Shown here: in pieces, positions 13,383-24,475 of the stretch | Numbering within the stretch: position 1 is the stretch's first letter | Layout of the letters: every line of letters starts with the position of its first letter | Assembly (NCBI RefSeq): GCF_900167465.1 | Contig: NZ_FUWR01000026.1 | Span: 1 to 34,180 of the forward strand | DNA length: 34,180 bases | DNA from: Trichlorobacter thiogenes | GTDB taxonomy: Bacteria; Desulfobacterota; Desulfuromonadia; Geobacterales; Pseudopelobacteraceae | Reading direction: 5' to 3' | The notes under the pieces: generated by a model | The model's input: only the letters and a program-made list of their open reading frames with translations | Told to the model about the DNA's origin: nothing | The model's database searches: none | Translations under genes and position numbers: made by a program

Positions 13383-14426
13383 ATGACGCACCGCTTACGC
13401 CTGATACCAGCCATCTGCCTGCTACTGCTTGCCCTTCCCCTGTCGGCCATCGCCTCCAAGACCCACCAGGTCCGCACAAAAGAGACACTTCCCAGCATCG
13501 CCCGTAAATACCGTGTCTCGGTTGAAGAGCTGAAGGCCGCCAACAACCTGAGTAGCACCCGTATCGCCAAAGGGGCTACCCTGATCATCCCTTCCAGGGC
13601 AGCAGCACAACCACTCATCGAAAACTGCAGCACCTATACCGTTGCAAAAGGGGATACCCTTCCCAAAATTGCCAAAAAAACCGGCAAGAAAATGTCAGAA
13701 CTGCGCCGGATCAACAAGCTTAAGGCAAACAAGGTAAAGCCGGGACAGATCTTAGCCCTGGCTGATACTGCGGCCACCTGTGATCTTACCGCTGCCCGGC
13801 AGACACGTGGTAAACGTCTTGAGCTGGTAAACAGTGACCTGCTGAACGAGCAGGAAATGAGCAGCACCTTGGCTGAGCTGTCTGACATTGATGCAGACAC
13901 CCCGGTTGACCTTGCCAAAAACCTTGAAGAACGCTCCACCGGCTTTTCCACCCTGCAAAAATCAGCCTATGGATTTTTAGGAGCTCGCTACCGCTTTGGC
14001 GGTAACAGTCGCTATGCCCTGGACTGTTCAAGCTTCACCCAGCAGGTTTTCCGAGAACAAAAAGTCAGTCTGCCCCGTACTGCCCGTGAGCAGTTCAGGA
14101 TCGGCAATGAAGTTCCCCGTGGCGACCTGCGTCGCGGCGATCTGGTCTTTTTCCGTACCTATGCACCCTTTGCGTCACATGTCGGCATCTACCTTGGCAA
14201 CCGCAAGATGATCCATGCCTCATCAGCAGAACACCGGGTGGTTATCTCCTCCATGGATACCCCCTACTATCTGTCACGCTACCTGGGAGCCCGCCGGATA
14301 AATAAGGTTAGCTCCGACTCTATCGACATTAGTGAGTTGATGTACGGTATTGAAGAAGAGAAGGAAGCTGATGTGCTTGCCAATGACCATCTTGGCCTGA
14401 ACCTGCCGGAGCCACTTACTAAATAA
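13383..14426 (+). CDS. secreted LysM-NlpC/P60 peptidoglycan endopeptidase
   Basis: The 347-residue product has a signal peptide (residues 1-25, ending SAIASK). Two LysM repeats (about 28-71 and 84-127) bind peptidoglycan glycan chains. An NlpC/P60 domain follows (about 193-305). The catalytic Cys215 is in LDCSSF, with His266 (SHVGIY) and His278 (IHAS) as the partner residues. It should cut peptide cross-links or stems in the cell wall, probably as a D,L-endopeptidase. GGAAGGAGG lies just before the ATG. It has its own promoter and ends in a strong terminator, so it is probably monocistronic. Confidence 0.93.
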   Translation: MTHRLRLIPAICLLLLALPLSAIASKTHQVRTKETLPSIARKYRVSVEELKAANNLSSTRIAKGATLIIPSRAAAQPLIENCSTYTVAKGDTLPKIAKKTGKKMSELRRINKLKANKVKPGQILALADTAATCDLTAARQTRGKRLELVNSDLLNEQEMSSTLAELSDIDADTPVDLAKNLEERSTGFSTLQKSAYGFLGARYRFGGNSRYALDCSSFTQQVFREQKVSLPRTAREQFRIGNEVPRGDLRRGDLVFFRTYAPFASHVGIYLGNRKMIHASSAEHRVVISSMDTPYYLSRYLGARRINKVSSDSIDISELMYGIEEEKEADVLANDHLGLNLPEPLTK

Positions 14427-14482: not shown

Positions 14483-14632
14483 TTAACTGGTTGTTGAAAA
14501 ACGTTATGAGGAAGCACGGCTACAAGGCGTAGGTCGCACAGCGACTGAGGCATAACAACTAGTTAGACGAAAAAGCGAGCACCGCGCAACGCCGTAGACG
14601 GGCTCCGCAGTAGTTTTTCAACAGCCTGTTAA
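14483..14632. repeat. structured intergenic element, copy A
   Basis: Arms at 14483-14502 and 14613-14632 are complementary at 18 of 20 positions (TTAACTGGTTGTTGAAAAAC against GTTTTTCAACAGCCTGTTAA). The 110-base interior is closely similar to copy B at 21776-21922, especially GAGGCATAAC and GAGCACCGCGCAACGCCGTA. It lies between a terminator and the radical SAM gene, ending 21 bases before that start codon. Confidence 0.85.
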
Positions 14633-14653: not shown

Positions 14654-16210
14654 ATGCATACACTGCTCGCCTACACAACCAGATCTGCACACAAGAGCAG
14701 GCCAGATGAGTTCGAAAGCCTTCTGCCGATCGGCCTCTGTTCGCTCCATGCCCTGTTACGCTCACAGCAAATTCCGGTAACGTTAGCAAACTTAAGCAAC
14801 ATGACCAATCGCCAGATCATTGATCTGCTGGTACAGACACAGCCAACCGTTGCAGGTCTTTCCCAATGGACGCACAATCGTCATGCCACCCTGGAGCTTG
14901 CACGACTGATCAAGCAAACCTTGCCAGACTGCAGTATCCTGCTGGGGGGAGGACACGCAACCCATCAGGCAGAACTGATTCTGGAACAGCATCCCGAGGT
15001 AGACCTGATAGCCGTTGGCGAGGCCGAGCAGACACTGCTGGATCTGCTGGATGCCTTGCAAACCGACAAGCCACTGGCAGAGATCCCTGGGCTGGTTATC
15101 CGCACCACTGATGGCATTCTGCGCACAGCACAGCGGCAGCCCTGGCCCGATCTTGATTTTTTACCCTTCCCCACCACTTGGCTTCATGAAGCGATTAACG
15201 TTACCACAACCTTACAGGCCGAGTTCATCAGCAGCTCCCGTGGCTGCCCGGCCGCCTGCAACTTCTGCGCGTCCCCTGCCTTTTGGGGCCGCAAGATACG
15301 CTATCGATCAGCAGAGTCGGTAGCTGAAGAGATGTTGTCTATCCGTGAACAGTATGGTCTGATCTACCTGTCATTACGTGACGACACCTTTACTTCAGAC
15401 CGACGTAGAACCGTTGCCCTCTGCCAGGAGCTGATTGAAAAGCGGGTCAACATCTTCTGGAACTGCCAGTCCAGGGTTGAAGCGATTGATCAGGAAACGC
15501 TTGAATGGATGCGCCGGGCAGGCTGTGAGTGCGTACAGCTTGGGGTTGAGTCCGGCTCACCGGACATTTTAAAACTGCTGGGCAAGCGGATCCTGCCTGA
15601 TCAGATCCGTACCGCCGCCAACCTGATCAGGCAGGCCGGTATGCAACTTTCTGTCTACCTGATCACCGGTATCCCGGAGGAACGTGACAGTGACCGGCAA
15701 CAGACCATCAATCTGATCAAACAGATTCAGCCTGACGATCTGCAGGTGGCGCCTCTGGCCTACTATCCAGGCACCGCCTTGTTTGAAACAGCAGTCAACA
15801 CAGGAAGACTTCAGCAGAATCTGTTTGAAACCAGCCAGGAAGAGGCGGTACTGGCAGAGCAGGATGGCCAACGTAAAGTCACACAGCTACTCTCCCGCAC
15901 TGCCCGCTACCGCCAGAACGCCAGCATCAAACAGCTGCTCACTATTCAGGAAAAATCCGGCTACAGCGCCGTTACCGCCATGCAGGCAGGTGATGCCTAT
16001 GCCGCTGAAGGAGAACTGCAGCGGGCAGAAGAACAGTACCAACTGATTACACAAAAAGAACCGGATCACCCCTGGGGCTGGTTCTTGTTGGGAGAGCTGT
16101 ACGAACAGACAGATACGCACCGCAAAGCGGAAGCATGCTACCAAAAGATACTGCAACTGGTCCCTCGAAACGGGCCAGCTGCAGAGGCACTGCAGCGTCT
16201 AAGACAATAA
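14654..16210 (+). CDS. B12-binding-type radical SAM protein with C-terminal TPR
   Basis: The 518-residue product has an N-terminal B12-binding-like Rossmann region (about 20-150, with LLGGGHATH and VGEAEQTLLDLL). A radical SAM domain follows, with Cys198, Cys202 and Cys205 (SRGCPAACNFC) for the 4Fe-4S cluster. A C-terminal TPR-like stretch (about 437-515) suggests a protein partner. The substrate is not known. The N-terminal domain lacks an obvious DxHxxG cobalamin ligand, so corrinoid binding is uncertain. No good ribosome site precedes the ATG; the upstream DNA is the end of repeat copy A, so expression may be unusual or the start misplaced. Confidence 0.88.
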   Translation: MHTLLAYTTRSAHKSRPDEFESLLPIGLCSLHALLRSQQIPVTLANLSNMTNRQIIDLLVQTQPTVAGLSQWTHNRHATLELARLIKQTLPDCSILLGGGHATHQAELILEQHPEVDLIAVGEAEQTLLDLLDALQTDKPLAEIPGLVIRTTDGILRTAQRQPWPDLDFLPFPTTWLHEAINVTTTLQAEFISSSRGCPAACNFCASPAFWGRKIRYRSAESVAEEMLSIREQYGLIYLSLRDDTFTSDRRRTVALCQELIEKRVNIFWNCQSRVEAIDQETLEWMRRAGCECVQLGVESGSPDILKLLGKRILPDQIRTAANLIRQAGMQLSVYLITGIPEERDSDRQQTINLIKQIQPDDLQVAPLAYYPGTALFETAVNTGRLQQNLFETSQEEAVLAEQDGQRKVTQLLSRTARYRQNASIKQLLTIQEKSGYSAVTAMQAGDAYAAEGELQRAEEQYQLITQKEPDHPWGWFLLGELYEQTDTHRKAEACYQKILQLVPRNGPAAEALQRLRQ

Positions 16211-20442: not shown

Positions 20443-21534
20443 TTACTGGCCATAGCGCCAGGCAGCAGAGCAACTTCCTTCACTGGAAACCATGCAGGCC
20501 CCCACCGGTGTCTCCGGGCTGCAGACCGTACCAAACAGCGGGCAGTCCGCCGGTGCAATCCGGCCGGTCAGCACCTCGCCGCAGCGGCAGCCAGCCGGTT
20601 CACTGGCATCCGGCAGCTCAATCTGAAATTTTCGGGCAGCATCAAAGGCAGCATACGCCTCACTCAGCACCAGACCACTGTCAGGCAGAACACCCAGCCC
20701 CCGCCAAACAGCATCAGCCGGTTCAAAGAGATGCCTGATCAACTCCTGAGCCTTGGTATTACCTTGTCGCGTGACTGCCCGGCTGTACTGGTTTTCAACC
20801 CGGGCCTGGCCAGCGCGGCATTGTCGCACCAACATCAGCACCCCCTGCAGCAGGTCCGCCGGTTCAAAACCGGTCACGACGCAGGGGATGCCGAATTTTT
20901 CAGCCAGGGGCAGATAGGCATCAGAGCCGATCACCGTACTGACATGGGCCGGACAGAGGTAGCCCCTGATCTTCAGCTCCGGGTCTGCAGACAAGGCCTG
21001 CATCGGGCCGGGCATGGTCTTGTGGCTGGTCAGCACAGAAAAATTACCAAGCCGCTGCTGTTGTGCCGCTAGAATCGCTGCTGCCACTGTGGGGGTGGTG
21101 GTCTCAAAACCGACCCCCAGAAATATCACCTGCTTCTCAGGCAGTTCGGTAGCCAGCTTGACCGCATCAAGTGCAGAATAGACGATCCTGACATCAGCCC
21201 CTTTAGCCCGCTCTGCCATCAGGGATGAGCATGAACCAGGCACCCGCAGCAGATCGCCAAAGGTGGTGATGACCGTATCCGGCAGGCCTGAAAGGGCAAT
21301 GGCATGGTCAATATAGCTGACCGGTGTTACGCAGACCGGACAGCCGGGACCAGATACCAGCTTGACCTGCTCCGGCAGCAATGATTTCAGGCCGAACTGG
21401 GCAATCGCCATGGTATGGGTGCCGCAGACCTCCATCAGACGCACCGGCTCCGGCAACTGCCGGGCCTCGTCTGCTATGGCGGCAGCCAGCCCCTGCACCA
21501 GCCCGCGATCACGGTATTCATCCTGAAACTTCAC
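20443..21534 (-). CDS. hypD: hydrogenase maturation protein HypD
   Basis: With HypC, HypD forms the scaffold on which the Fe(CN)2CO group of [NiFe]-hydrogenase is built. The 363-residue product has the iron-site Cys37 (EVCGTHTMAI), and Cys65 and Cys68 in GPGCPVC. The C-terminal 4Fe-4S ligands fall in GCRCGEVLTG, DCPLFGTVC and GACMVSSEGSC. The start is GTG at 21534, overlapping the hypC stop by 4 bases, the usual coupling in hypCD. All key cysteines are intact. Confidence 0.97.
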   Translation of the reverse strand: MKFQDEYRDRGLVQGLAAAIADEARQLPEPVRLMEVCGTHTMAIAQFGLKSLLPEQVKLVSGPGCPVCVTPVSYIDHAIALSGLPDTVITTFGDLLRVPGSCSSLMAERAKGADVRIVYSALDAVKLATELPEKQVIFLGVGFETTTPTVAAAILAAQQQRLGNFSVLTSHKTMPGPMQALSADPELKIRGYLCPAHVSTVIGSDAYLPLAEKFGIPCVVTGFEPADLLQGVLMLVRQCRAGQARVENQYSRAVTRQGNTKAQELIRHLFEPADAVWRGLGVLPDSGLVLSEAYAAFDAARKFQIELPDASEPAGCRCGEVLTGRIAPADCPLFGTVCSPETPVGACMVSSEGSCSAAWRYGQ

Positions 21535-21761
21535 GCCATATCCTCAGGGGTAAAGATCTCCCGCATTATCCGCAGGGTTTCTTCCGCCTCAGCCGGGTCG
21601 ATCCGCGAGATGGCGAATCCGGCATGCACGATCACATAATCCCCCACCGCCACCGGATCACCCAACATCATCAGACTGGCCTCACGCTGCACGCCATCAA
21701 TCTCGGCCACAACCATATCATCACGTATTTCAAGTACCTGCATTGGCACACCAAGACACAT
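21531..21761 (-). CDS. hypC: hydrogenase maturation chaperone HypC
   Basis: The 76-residue product starts MCLGVPMQVLEI. Cys2, exposed after loss of Met1, is the residue that binds the Fe(CN)2CO unit and the HypD partner. Length and the DYVIVHAGFAISRID core are typical of the family. AAGGAGG is 10 bases upstream, immediately next to structured repeat copy B. It overlaps hypD by 4 bases. Confidence 0.96.
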   Translation of the reverse strand: MCLGVPMQVLEIRDDMVVAEIDGVQREASLMMLGDPVAVGDYVIVHAGFAISRIDPAEAEETLRIMREIFTPEDMA

Positions 21762-21775
21762 TGTTATCCCCTCCT

Positions 21776-21922
21776 TAACAGGGCTTTAAAAACGTCATGA
21801 GGAAGGCCGGATACCAGGCGCGCGGAGCGCAACGACTGAGGCATAACGGACCGGTTAGACGAAGAAGTGAGCACCGCGCAACGCCGTAGACGGCCTCCGC
21901 AATAGTTTTTAAGGCCCTGTTT
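21776..21922. repeat. structured intergenic element, copy B
   Basis: Arms at 21776-21793 and 21905-21922 are complementary at 16 of 18 positions (TAACAGGGCTTTAAAAAC against GTTTTTAAGGCCCTGTTT), and one mismatch is a G-T pair. The interior closely matches copy A. The element sits inside the hypF-hypC interval: the hypF stop codon lies in one arm and the hypC ribosome site touches the other. Confidence 0.85.
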
Positions 21923-24152
21923 GTGCAGCTATTGCTGCCTGCCCCAGGGCAATACCACCATCATTAGGCGGCACCAATCTATGTATAAAGACTGAAAAAT
22001 GAGATTTTGCCAAGAAAGTATACACCAACTCGGTTAAAAGACGATTCTGAAACACACCACCGGACAGCACCACACGATCTAAACCGGTTTCCTTACGGAT
22101 CAGCGCACAGCCATCCACCACTGCCATAGCCAGACTGGCGTGGAAGGCCCAGGCCAATGATGCCACAGGCTCGCCTGTTTGCAGCCGCTGCAGCAGTCCC
22201 AGCAGCATCGGCAGCGGATCAAGCTGAAACGGCCTGCCCGGTTGCAGCTGATACGGCAGCAGATCTGTTGTTGCTGCCGTCTCTGCCAACGCCTCCAGCG
22301 CCATACCAGCCTGGCCGTCAAAGCTGTTACGGGTAGCCGCCCCGGTCAAAAAGGCAACCGCATCAAACAACCGACCGGCACTGGAGGTAAACGGCGCATG
22401 AATCCCCCGCTCCAGCATGGCCTCCAACAGTTGACGCTCTGTAGCGGAAAGTATCGGCATGCCTGGCAGTTGCCAGACAGCATCACCAAGCGATTCCCAA
22501 AGCCAGGCAGCAGCCATCCGCCATGGTTCACGGGCCGCAACATCGCCGCCGGGCAGGCGCACCTGTTTCAGATGGCCGGCCCGCTGCACAGCTGAATAGC
22601 CCCCCACCAGAAACTCGCCCCCCCAGACCGTGCCATCATCCCCCAGACCGGTGCCGTCAAAGATCACGCCGATCAGGTCGCCATCCAGACCGTTTTCAGC
22701 CATGCAGGAGGCCAGATGGGCGTGGTGGTGCTGGACTCGTACCAGCGGCAGCCCCAGTTCTTCGGCATAACGGGTGGAGAGGTAGTCCGGATGCTGATCG
22801 CAGACCACCCACTCCGGCCTGATCTCCATAATTGTGCTGAGATGACCAATCGTCTGGCGAAAGGTATCCAGAGTGGCCTCATTTTTCAGATCACCGATAT
22901 GCTGGCTGAGAAAAGCCTGCCTGCTGCGGGTCAGGCAGACCGTATTTTTCAGTTCTGCCCCCACTGCCAGAATAGTTCCAGACTCAAACGGCAGCAGCAC
23001 CGGTCGCGGTACATAGCCCCGTGAACGACGGTAAAAGAGCGGCCTGCCCTGAAAGACCCGCAGCACCGAATCATCGGTTCGCACCTGTATTGGCCGGTTG
23101 TGAGTCAGGATGGCATCGGCAATGCCGGACAGTTTTTTCTGCGCTTCCTGATCATCCGCAATCATCGGCTCATCAGAGGCATTGGCGCTGGTCATCACCA
23201 ACGCCTTCAACGTGGTATCGGCAAATAGCAACTGGTGCAGCGGCGTATAGGCCAGCATCAGACCGATCCAGCGGCTGCCTGGGGCAACCAGCCCGGAGAC
23301 CGGCGAATCAGCCCTGCTGCGCACAATCACCACCGGCGCCTCGGCTCCGGCCAGCAGCCGTTCTTCCATCTCTGAGAGATCTGCCAACTGCCTCGCCGTT
23401 GCCAGATCAGGCACCATCACCGCAAACGGCTTTTCATCCCGCTTTTTGCGCTGCCGCAACCGGGCCACCGCCTGATCATTGCAGGCATCCACTGCCAGAT
23501 GATAGCCGCCCAACCCTTTCACCGCCACAATCTTGCCCTGTTGCAGCAGGACAATCGCCTGCCCCAGCGGATCAGCATGTGGGGGAATCAAGGACAGCTG
23601 AGGACCACAGGCCGGACAGGCGATCGGTTGGGCATGGAAACGGCGGTCAAGGGGATTACTATATTCTTCTTCACATTCAGGACAGAGAGGAAAGCCAGCC
23701 ATGGTGGTCAGGGGACGATCATAGGGGATGCCGGTCACAATGGTCCAGCGGGGACCGCAGTTGGTGCAGGTGATAAAGGGATGCTGGAAACGACGGTCAG
23801 CAGGATCACACAGTTCTCTCAGGCAGTCAGCACACAAGGCGCTATCCGGGGCAATCTGGGGTTCACGCCTGCCATCGCTGCTGGCAAGGATCACAAAGCC
23901 GGTTTCTTCGTCAATAATCGGGATATCGCTTGAATCAAGCGAACTGATGACTGCCAGCGGCGGCAGCTCTGACTGCAGGCGGCAGCTAAACGCGGCAAGC
24001 TGTTCCTCCCCACCCTGCAGCTCAAGCTCCACCCCGGCCGGCGTATTGCGCACCCAGCCAGTCAGGCTCAGCTCAGTTGCCAGGCGAAAGACAAAAGGGC
24101 GGAACCCCACCCCTTGGACAATGCCGGTAATGATGGACTGCTGGCGGATCAT
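21909..24152 (-). CDS. hypF: carbamoyltransferase HypF
   Basis: HypF converts carbamoyl phosphate to a carbamoyl-adenylate and loads HypE, the source of the cyanide ligands of [NiFe]-hydrogenase. Domains in order are acylphosphatase (TGIVQGVGFRPFVFRLA, near residue 10), two Cys4 zinc motifs (CADCLRELC...CTNCGPR and CPECEEEY...CPACGPQ), a YrdC-like domain (about 200-380), and a Kae1-like domain with HHHAHLASCMAENG. Length is typical. ATG at 24152 or GTG at 24158 are both possible. Neither has a ribosome site, and the ATG overlaps the stop of a truncated DUF1016 gene (ATGA). The last residues are encoded by repeat copy B. Confidence 0.95.
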   Translation of the reverse strand: MIRQQSIITGIVQGVGFRPFVFRLATELSLTGWVRNTPAGVELELQGGEEQLAAFSCRLQSELPPLAVISSLDSSDIPIIDEETGFVILASSDGRREPQIAPDSALCADCLRELCDPADRRFQHPFITCTNCGPRWTIVTGIPYDRPLTTMAGFPLCPECEEEYSNPLDRRFHAQPIACPACGPQLSLIPPHADPLGQAIVLLQQGKIVAVKGLGGYHLAVDACNDQAVARLRQRKKRDEKPFAVMVPDLATARQLADLSEMEERLLAGAEAPVVIVRSRADSPVSGLVAPGSRWIGLMLAYTPLHQLLFADTTLKALVMTSANASDEPMIADDQEAQKKLSGIADAILTHNRPIQVRTDDSVLRVFQGRPLFYRRSRGYVPRPVLLPFESGTILAVGAELKNTVCLTRSRQAFLSQHIGDLKNEATLDTFRQTIGHLSTIMEIRPEWVVCDQHPDYLSTRYAEELGLPLVRVQHHHAHLASCMAENGLDGDLIGVIFDGTGLGDDGTVWGGEFLVGGYSAVQRAGHLKQVRLPGGDVAAREPWRMAAAWLWESLGDAVWQLPGMPILSATERQLLEAMLERGIHAPFTSSAGRLFDAVAFLTGAATRNSFDGQAGMALEALAETAATTDLLPYQLQPGRPFQLDPLPMLLGLLQRLQTGEPVASLAWAFHASLAMAVVDGCALIRKETGLDRVVLSGGVFQNRLLTELVYTFLAKSHFSVFIHRLVPPNDGGIALGQAAIAAQTGP

Positions 24153-24475
24153 ATCCACGATTGTGCAACAAGCTGTTGCACAAATTGTTCATCCGGCCAA
24201 GCTTCTGCAACCTTCCGCATATACGTTAGGTTTCTTGGAGAAAAACCCTTCATATCAGTAAACTCAGCACGCAGATCCTTTGCCAGTCGCTCAACGATCT
24301 TGGCCCCCCATCCTTCCCGTTCCTGCCGCTCCAAAATATCACGGCCAATCTGCCAGTAGAGCAGTACCAGCTCGCGGTTGGCTGCCAGAGCTGCCCGTAT
24401 TCTGGCAGAGCGAATGCGATGCTTCAGGTCTTGCAAAAACTTCCTGTAGCTTGTGGTGATCTCATTGGTGGTCAT
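24149..24475 (-). pseudogene. DUF1016 (YhcG) N-terminal fragment
   Basis: ATG at 24475 opens a 108-residue frame. It matches the N-terminal domain of DUF1016/YhcG proteins (LLYWQIGRDILERQEREGWG, then FSPRNLTYMRKVAEAWPDEQ and QQLVAQ). In the family the next residues are normally IPWGHN, followed by a PD-(D/E)XK nuclease domain. Here the frame ends SWI and a stop at exactly that point, where hypF begins. The nuclease half is missing, so it is a truncated gene. It may still be translated, since its stop codon overlaps the hypF ATG. It is distinct from the full-length DUF1016 gene at 24793. Confidence 0.8.

Follow-up and report, generated by a model that had tools for sequence, protein, structure and literature searches.

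A MITE family with IS5-type ends and a conserved, covarying hairpin interior in Trichlorobacter thiogenes and its relatives

Small palindromic or mobile intergenic repeats are described from several bacterial groups. In the related bacterium Geobacter uraniireducens, 38 copies of the MITE Chunjie are reported, one of them within a phosphate-uptake operon (PMC10969869). Geobacter genomes are also described to contain palindromic intergenic 'multicopy nucleotide sequences' (PMC2996986, PMC2700814). ERIC of the enterobacteria is presented as a MITE of ~127-140 bp with a predicted single long stem-loop and an effect on Yersinia transcripts (PMC2267715, PMC10969869). For the Bacillus cereus group, bcr1-bcr3 are characterised as MITE-like and often located within transcripts, and conserved secondary structures are reported for bcr10 and bcr18 (PMC3446304).

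The element of this study is present in two copies, A and B, in a window of 34,180 nucleotides, the whole stretch of Trichlorobacter thiogenes DNA that was analysed (assembly GCF_900167465.1, contig NZ_FUWR01000026.1, positions 1 to 34,180). As far as the descriptions in these sources allow a comparison, it resembles ERIC in size, in the single stem-loop and in being a MITE, and the bcr repeats in being MITE-like or structured; both belong to other host groups. It is palindromic and intergenic like the 'multicopy nucleotide sequences' of Geobacter. Chunjie is likewise a MITE of a related bacterium, but differs in its length of 178-235 bp. The general features of the present element are those of IS5-related MITEs: it is short, encodes no transposase, has terminal inverted repeats and short target duplications, and shares its ends with a transposon of relatives. 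Unlike IS5-related MITEs in general, the interior is a conserved covarying hairpin, and several end types occur across the phylum. Spread and structure are unusual for such a small genetic parasite. No earlier description of the family was found in a literature search that left supplements and most subscription papers aside, and short core and end strings retrieved nothing relevant from full-text papers, as judged by their titles.

Architecture, insertion and related IS5 transposons

The initial annotation had placed two matching intergenic stretches at 14483-14632 and 21776-21922, and both were confirmed there (Table 1). For copy A the location held, but the element proper is shorter than the noted span, and the outermost bases are two 4-bp target repeats. 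In an intact copy, CAGG-type terminal repeats form the two ends; between them, a structured core of ~124 bases is preceded by an A-tract and followed by a T-tract. Both copies have the size of a MITE, and 142 bp and 141 bp leave no room for a transposase gene. Copy B is located between hypF and hypC. Searches with copies A and B detected ~19 copies in the T. thiogenes genome (G000; 3.57 Mb, 42 contigs). The repeat was also found on contigs of Trichlorobacter sp. MAG11 and Geobacteraceae bacterium MS_R1_2.

Table 1. Element copies, their parts and adjacent genes in the window
Feature	Position	Strand	Remarks
NlpC/P60 protein gene with LysM domains	13383..14426	+	upstream of copy A
Copy A target duplication TTAA, left	14483..14486	.	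sequence flanking copy A (row L001)
Copy A, complete element	14487..14628	+	142 bp; ends CTGG...CCTG, TTAA on each side
Copy A structured core	14497..14620	+	R1 match, 143.9 bits
Copy A tip hairpin	14553..14565	+	TAAC-AACTA-GTTA; the loop is the hypervariable part
Copy A target duplication TTAA, right	14629..14632	.	sequence flanking copy A (row L001)
B12-binding radical SAM protein gene	14654..16210	+	downstream of copy A
hypD	20443..21534	-	adjoins hypC
hypC	21531..21761	-	GGAGG ribosome-binding site at 21770-21774, just beyond copy B, intact
Copy B, complete element	21779..21919	+	141 bp; flanks TTAA and TTTG
Copy B structured core	21788..21912	+	R1 match, 142.6 bits
hypF	21909..24158	-	stop codon within the right arm of copy B

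Terminal inverted repeats, a MITE trait, were recognisable at both ends of 78 genus copies, and a subset of the genus copies had no recognisable terminal repeats. The genus has three subtypes, namely CAGGCTGTTG, CAGGGCTTTG and GAGCCTCKTGC. The ends of copy A belong to the first and those of copy B to the second. The outer arms, described in the initial annotation as different between the copies and complementary within each, are real and do differ, but those of copy B contain one mismatch (GGGCTTTAAAAAC versus the complement of GTTTTTAAGGCCC). The reading of this difference as a paired change was not borne out: the arms represent two terminal-repeat subtypes. Because terminal repeats are inverted copies by nature, the outer arms are uninformative on the fold. 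Arms matched better within than between copies, with a mean local score of 6.95 compared to 4.67 after shuffling (maximum 5.35 of 200), in a test on 84 genus rows including two weak R1 matches. These two (L012:2052-2174 and L057:1273-1396) were left out of the pairing, ortholog, target-repeat, loop and strand analyses. Their ends are TCCAGTTT...ACTGGAAT and TCCAATTC...ATTGGAAT; they are located near true copies and possibly represent another hairpin repeat.

A non-autonomous mobile element had been one of three suggestions for the repeat. It is strongly supported by the terminal repeats, target duplications, empty sites and IS5 elements with the same ends. A flank comparison across the 15 genus genomes, including the own genome, revealed empty orthologous sites for both A and B in G014, G002 and G011. 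In these genomes, 6-17 bases separate the flanks, compared to at least 151 in the window. Exact 4-bp flanking repeats are present in copy A and altogether in 21 of 78 copies (shuffles: mean 5.5, maximum 15 of 5000), and 45 of 78 have flanks with at most one mismatch (shuffles: mean 25.5, maximum 37 of 5000). The other 57 copies, copy B with TTAA/TTTG among them, lack an exact repeat. This count does not include copies that lack recognisable ends, nor up to four rows of orthologs. TA is central in the left flank of 41 and in the right flank of 58 of the 78 copies with both ends. In genome G139, copies near contig ends (L118-L122) have one flank in common and the other not, a pattern that either assembly joins or recombination between copies would produce.

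An end-pattern search in four genomes led to an IS5-family element in G014 (G014:C148:5187-6506) with the ends CAGGCCTTTGAAAAAC / CAGCCCTTTGAAAAAC and the flanks GTAA/CTAA, which are not an exact repeat. Its 364-aa protein matches NCBIfam IS5_4 and Pfam DUF772 and DDE_Tnp_1. Genome G002 contains nine copies of one IS5-family element, identical over 1325 bases, with the ends CAGGCTGTTGAAA / CAGGTCGTTGAAA. Exact 4-bp nTAn duplications border six of the nine; the remaining three have one left flank in common. In the G002 transposase, one internal TGA precedes a plausible start, and the frame is open for 364 codons thereafter. G014 and G002 each contain an IS5-family element that is autonomous and agrees with the MITE in its ends and target. 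Since the ends and the nTAn target are common to the element and the IS5 elements of relatives, an IS5-family transposase likely moves the element in trans. Only the CAGG-type ends were tied to a transposon in this analysis. Related transposases were present in three of the 15 genus genomes. With one transposase as query, none was detected in T. thiogenes at E <= 1e-20; the helper of its copies may have been lost, be more distant or be another one. The classification as a new IS5-type MITE family in the genus is well supported.

Fold, covariation and constraint of the core

None of 200 dinucleotide shuffles folds as well as the copy concerned, with z-scores of -4.7 for copy A and -7.5 for copy B. 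Two interior differences between them had been read as paired changes. GGAAGC/GCTCC in copy A and GGAAGG/CCTCC in copy B proved to be a true double change: of 81 distinct cores, obtained from 82 genus copies by merging identical cores, 51 have G-C and 26 have C-G at this pair. The replacement of ACTAGT by ACCGGT is present, but is not a paired change. It concerns the tip loop, which has 59 sequences in 82 copies and a palindromic 6-mer in just four of them. The claim of a fold under selection was supported by the further copies, but not by the three changes cited for it, which comprise a subtype difference, loop variation and one true pair. The number of ~82 analysed genus copies compares to 110 BLAST matches, some of which are fragments of one copy.

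Across the 81 distinct cores, Watson-Crick pairs occupy 2510 of 2666 pair cells (94%); 69 cells are G.U, 46 A.C and 41 others. Covariation was strong over more members. In an unconstrained alignment of 34 cores (A2; two partial copies of 36 were left out), 97.5% of cells pair and nine of 33 pairs have double changes. The covariation score of 0.184 compares to 0.091 after shuffling, was reached by none of 500 shuffles and was at most 0.058 when slid. Further pair types were at the shuffled level (330 of 500). Whether changes break pairing as often as they keep it has a mixed answer once orthologs are included. Within orthologs, one-sided changes keep pairing 17 times, mostly as G-U, and break it 14 times. 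The four two-sided rows in 13 overlapping ortholog comparisons amount to two independent events. A mismatch is conserved as well: GA opposite GA, a tandem G.A in columns 51,52/75,76, is present in 75 of 82 copies.

Orthologous copies common to several species were recognised by flank comparison. In seven ortholog pairs, differences affect 42 of 822 core positions outside the tip loop (5.1%), 14 of 44 positions within it (32%) and 464 of 4453 in the flanks as a whole (10.4%). For six of the seven pairs, that is all except L057/L064, codon positions were available. First and second positions differ at 40 of 1722 (2.3%) and third positions at 214 of 861 (24.9%), the latter figure being somewhat raised by the choice of reading frames according to the placement of differences. 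The comparison of 5.1% in the core with 24.9% at third positions suggests that the core is constrained in place. The tip loop drifts like a silent site; the rest of the core does not. For four of the seven groups, an ortholog is closer by a clear margin than any other copy, which makes gene conversion unlikely in those four. Other copies are about equally similar in the remaining three groups; gene conversion is possible there and may add to the conservation.

Covariation could also originate from template switching in replication, in which an imperfect palindrome has the sequence of one arm copied to the other and pairing is restored in a single step, without selection on the fold. The process is described as able to make and maintain hairpins (PMC8794818). 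Double transversions (G-C to C-G, A-T to C-G) are frequent and G.U and A.C intermediates are few, in agreement with such a process. Between the orthologs L006 and L292, a clustered change at a single place produces a local perfect hairpin and looks like template switching or gene conversion. However, template switching should erase mismatches, yet the tandem G.A persists, and fixed copies alter little outside the tip loop. Template switching may be behind part of the paired changes. The conserved mismatches are not readily explained by it, and as a replacement for selection on the fold it is possible, but not probable.

Distribution across the phylum and possible role of the core

The search of relatives detected the element in 11 of 15 genus genomes, including the own genome. 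The model R1 matched 31 of the 76 genomes of the family and 56 of the 141 of the order, again including the own genome (E <= 0.001), as well as 48 of 395 sampled phylum genomes (E <= 1e-4). The broader model R2, applied within the phylum only, recognised at least 153 of the 395 sampled genomes and at least 98 of 246 genera (E <= 1e-6), lower bounds at this cut-off with at most eight candidates per genome scored and rough E-values. Twenty R2 matches were fetched, 19 of them from genomes outside the R2 building set, and all 20 align with the same core. The distant members have the islands GATRCAAGGCG and CGCAACGCNGYAGA in common and carry other ends: GACGGC...GCCGTC, TTGACGC...GCGTCAA, GAGGCTGTCG...CGACAGCCTC and GGTGGTGGAGACGGGC...GCCCGTATCCGCCACC. 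In the alignment of 30 diverse members from which R2 was built (A7), double changes affect nine of 11 helix pairs, a number also reached by 34 of 500 shuffles. The cells with double changes are 88 compared to 26.6 after shuffling. The covariation score of 0.728 compares to 0.254, was reached by none of 500 shuffles and was at most 0.184 when slid. A structured core that recurs across the phylum, has differing ends and is constrained where inserted is supported by these data.

Further observations concern the ends and the carriers. In many distant members (L343-L361), the core match is preceded, at a distance of ~10-25 bases, by a stretch resembling TTGAAAAAGTC or TCGTAAAAAG. It lies upstream of the left arm, as if it were a second, outer left end. 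Genome G346 has 236 matches to a TGANGGCNTCG-type end (TGANGGCNTCGTAAAAA) and probably ~100 or more copies of a related element. Plasmid records searched with three elements and phage records searched with one gave no match. Among viral contigs, eight pattern matches were obtained, of which R2 scores L334 well and L329 weakly. The well-scoring copy is located on an IMG/VR viral contig (L334:4166-4292, 66.8 bits). Rfam had no match on the element at gathering cut-offs (6 loci), at E <= 1 (6 loci) and at E <= 0.5 (14 loci).

Strand asymmetries provide indications for the folded entity. In the + strand of distant members, 25 of 359 cells are G.U and three are A.C; the reverse-strand consensus, in another register, has 20 G.U and 11 A.C. 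The consensus stability of the distant members is -13.2 for the + strand versus -10.3 for the reverse. At the genus level, the lean in the G.U and A.C cells is weak. With DNA parameters, the + strand folds better in 74 of 82 genus copies and 45 of 53 other copies; with RNA parameters, it does so in 39 of 82 and 37 of 53. One folded strand is favoured over a cruciform by these comparisons, which are not decisive and do not separate RNA from DNA.

The position relative to genes was analysed in the T. thiogenes genome with a simple ORF script that measured distances from the core plus 20 bases. The 3' end of a gene was at most 25 bases away for 11 of 19 copies. This closeness is consistent with the nTAn target, since a stop codon is often part of that sequence. 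Relative to the neighbouring genes, the element has the same direction as both in six cases and the opposite direction to both in seven; the neighbours differ in direction in six. The balanced orientation argues against an orientation-specific cis RNA.

Taken together, the element is a MITE, probably mobilised by an IS5-type transposase in trans, with a hairpin core that is probably selected as one folded strand and with some copies probably useful to the host. The interior is one long conserved hairpin in which pairs covary, internal loops such as the tandem G.A are conserved and the tip loop drifts freely. The selected entity would be one folded strand in the CAAGGCG...CGCAACGC orientation. 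It may act, most likely as RNA, in read-through transcripts at gene 3' ends and between the genes of operons. There the hairpin could contribute to the tolerance of insertions, for instance if it shields the host transcript or leads to its processing, and part of the copies may since have become useful to the host. This role of the core is inferred.

In a related scenario, the core would be of ancient origin in the phylum, a structured RNA or a single strand in folded form. It would travel with the ends of different transposons, swapping them repeatedly while the core itself persists, and many copies would be kept by the host as useful at gene ends. This scenario is considered tentative and somewhat improbable. 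The core could also be primarily a functional host RNA, either a small RNA or an RNA-processing signal, with mobility as a secondary trait. The constraint in place, the retention of copies without recognisable ends at the same loci in different species and the joining of a phylum-wide core to differing ends agree with a host RNA. Its distribution is patchy, however: under the cut-offs applied, four of the 15 genus genomes and 242 of the 395 phylum genomes lack the element. Many copies are at species-specific places, the orientation relative to genes is not fixed, and an Rfam family is lacking. A primary host function is unlikely. A protein-binding DNA cruciform, as proposed in the initial annotation, is very improbable: the sequence is near-palindromic and the + strand folds better with DNA parameters, but a cruciform would use both strands alike, and the strands differ in predicted stability and, at the distant level, in G.U versus A.C, an asymmetry that leans against a symmetric cruciform without being decisive.

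If the MITE with a selected hairpin is the true reading, the interior of a MITE, and not its ends alone, is under selection. The hairpin module is present in about two fifths of the sampled phylum genomes, has no Rfam family and is conserved in place, and its transposon-like ends vary. It offers a tractable system for telling selection from template switching as the source of covariation, and for asking how small parasites grow tolerated or useful at gene ends.

Three other readings were also considered. A riboswitch or leader RNA is not favoured by the variable orientation to genes and the lack of an Rfam match. A terminator as the main role is not favoured either; several bases separate the inner stem from the T run. 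The tip motif GCATAAC...GTTAGAC is reminiscent of the core sites of integron attC, but the motif here is a small tip hairpin with a loop of 3-7 bases, and an attC site was rejected. Near one element copy, a molybdenum/tungsten cofactor riboswitch (RF01055, 63.4 bits) is located on the minus strand of L115:1315-1436.
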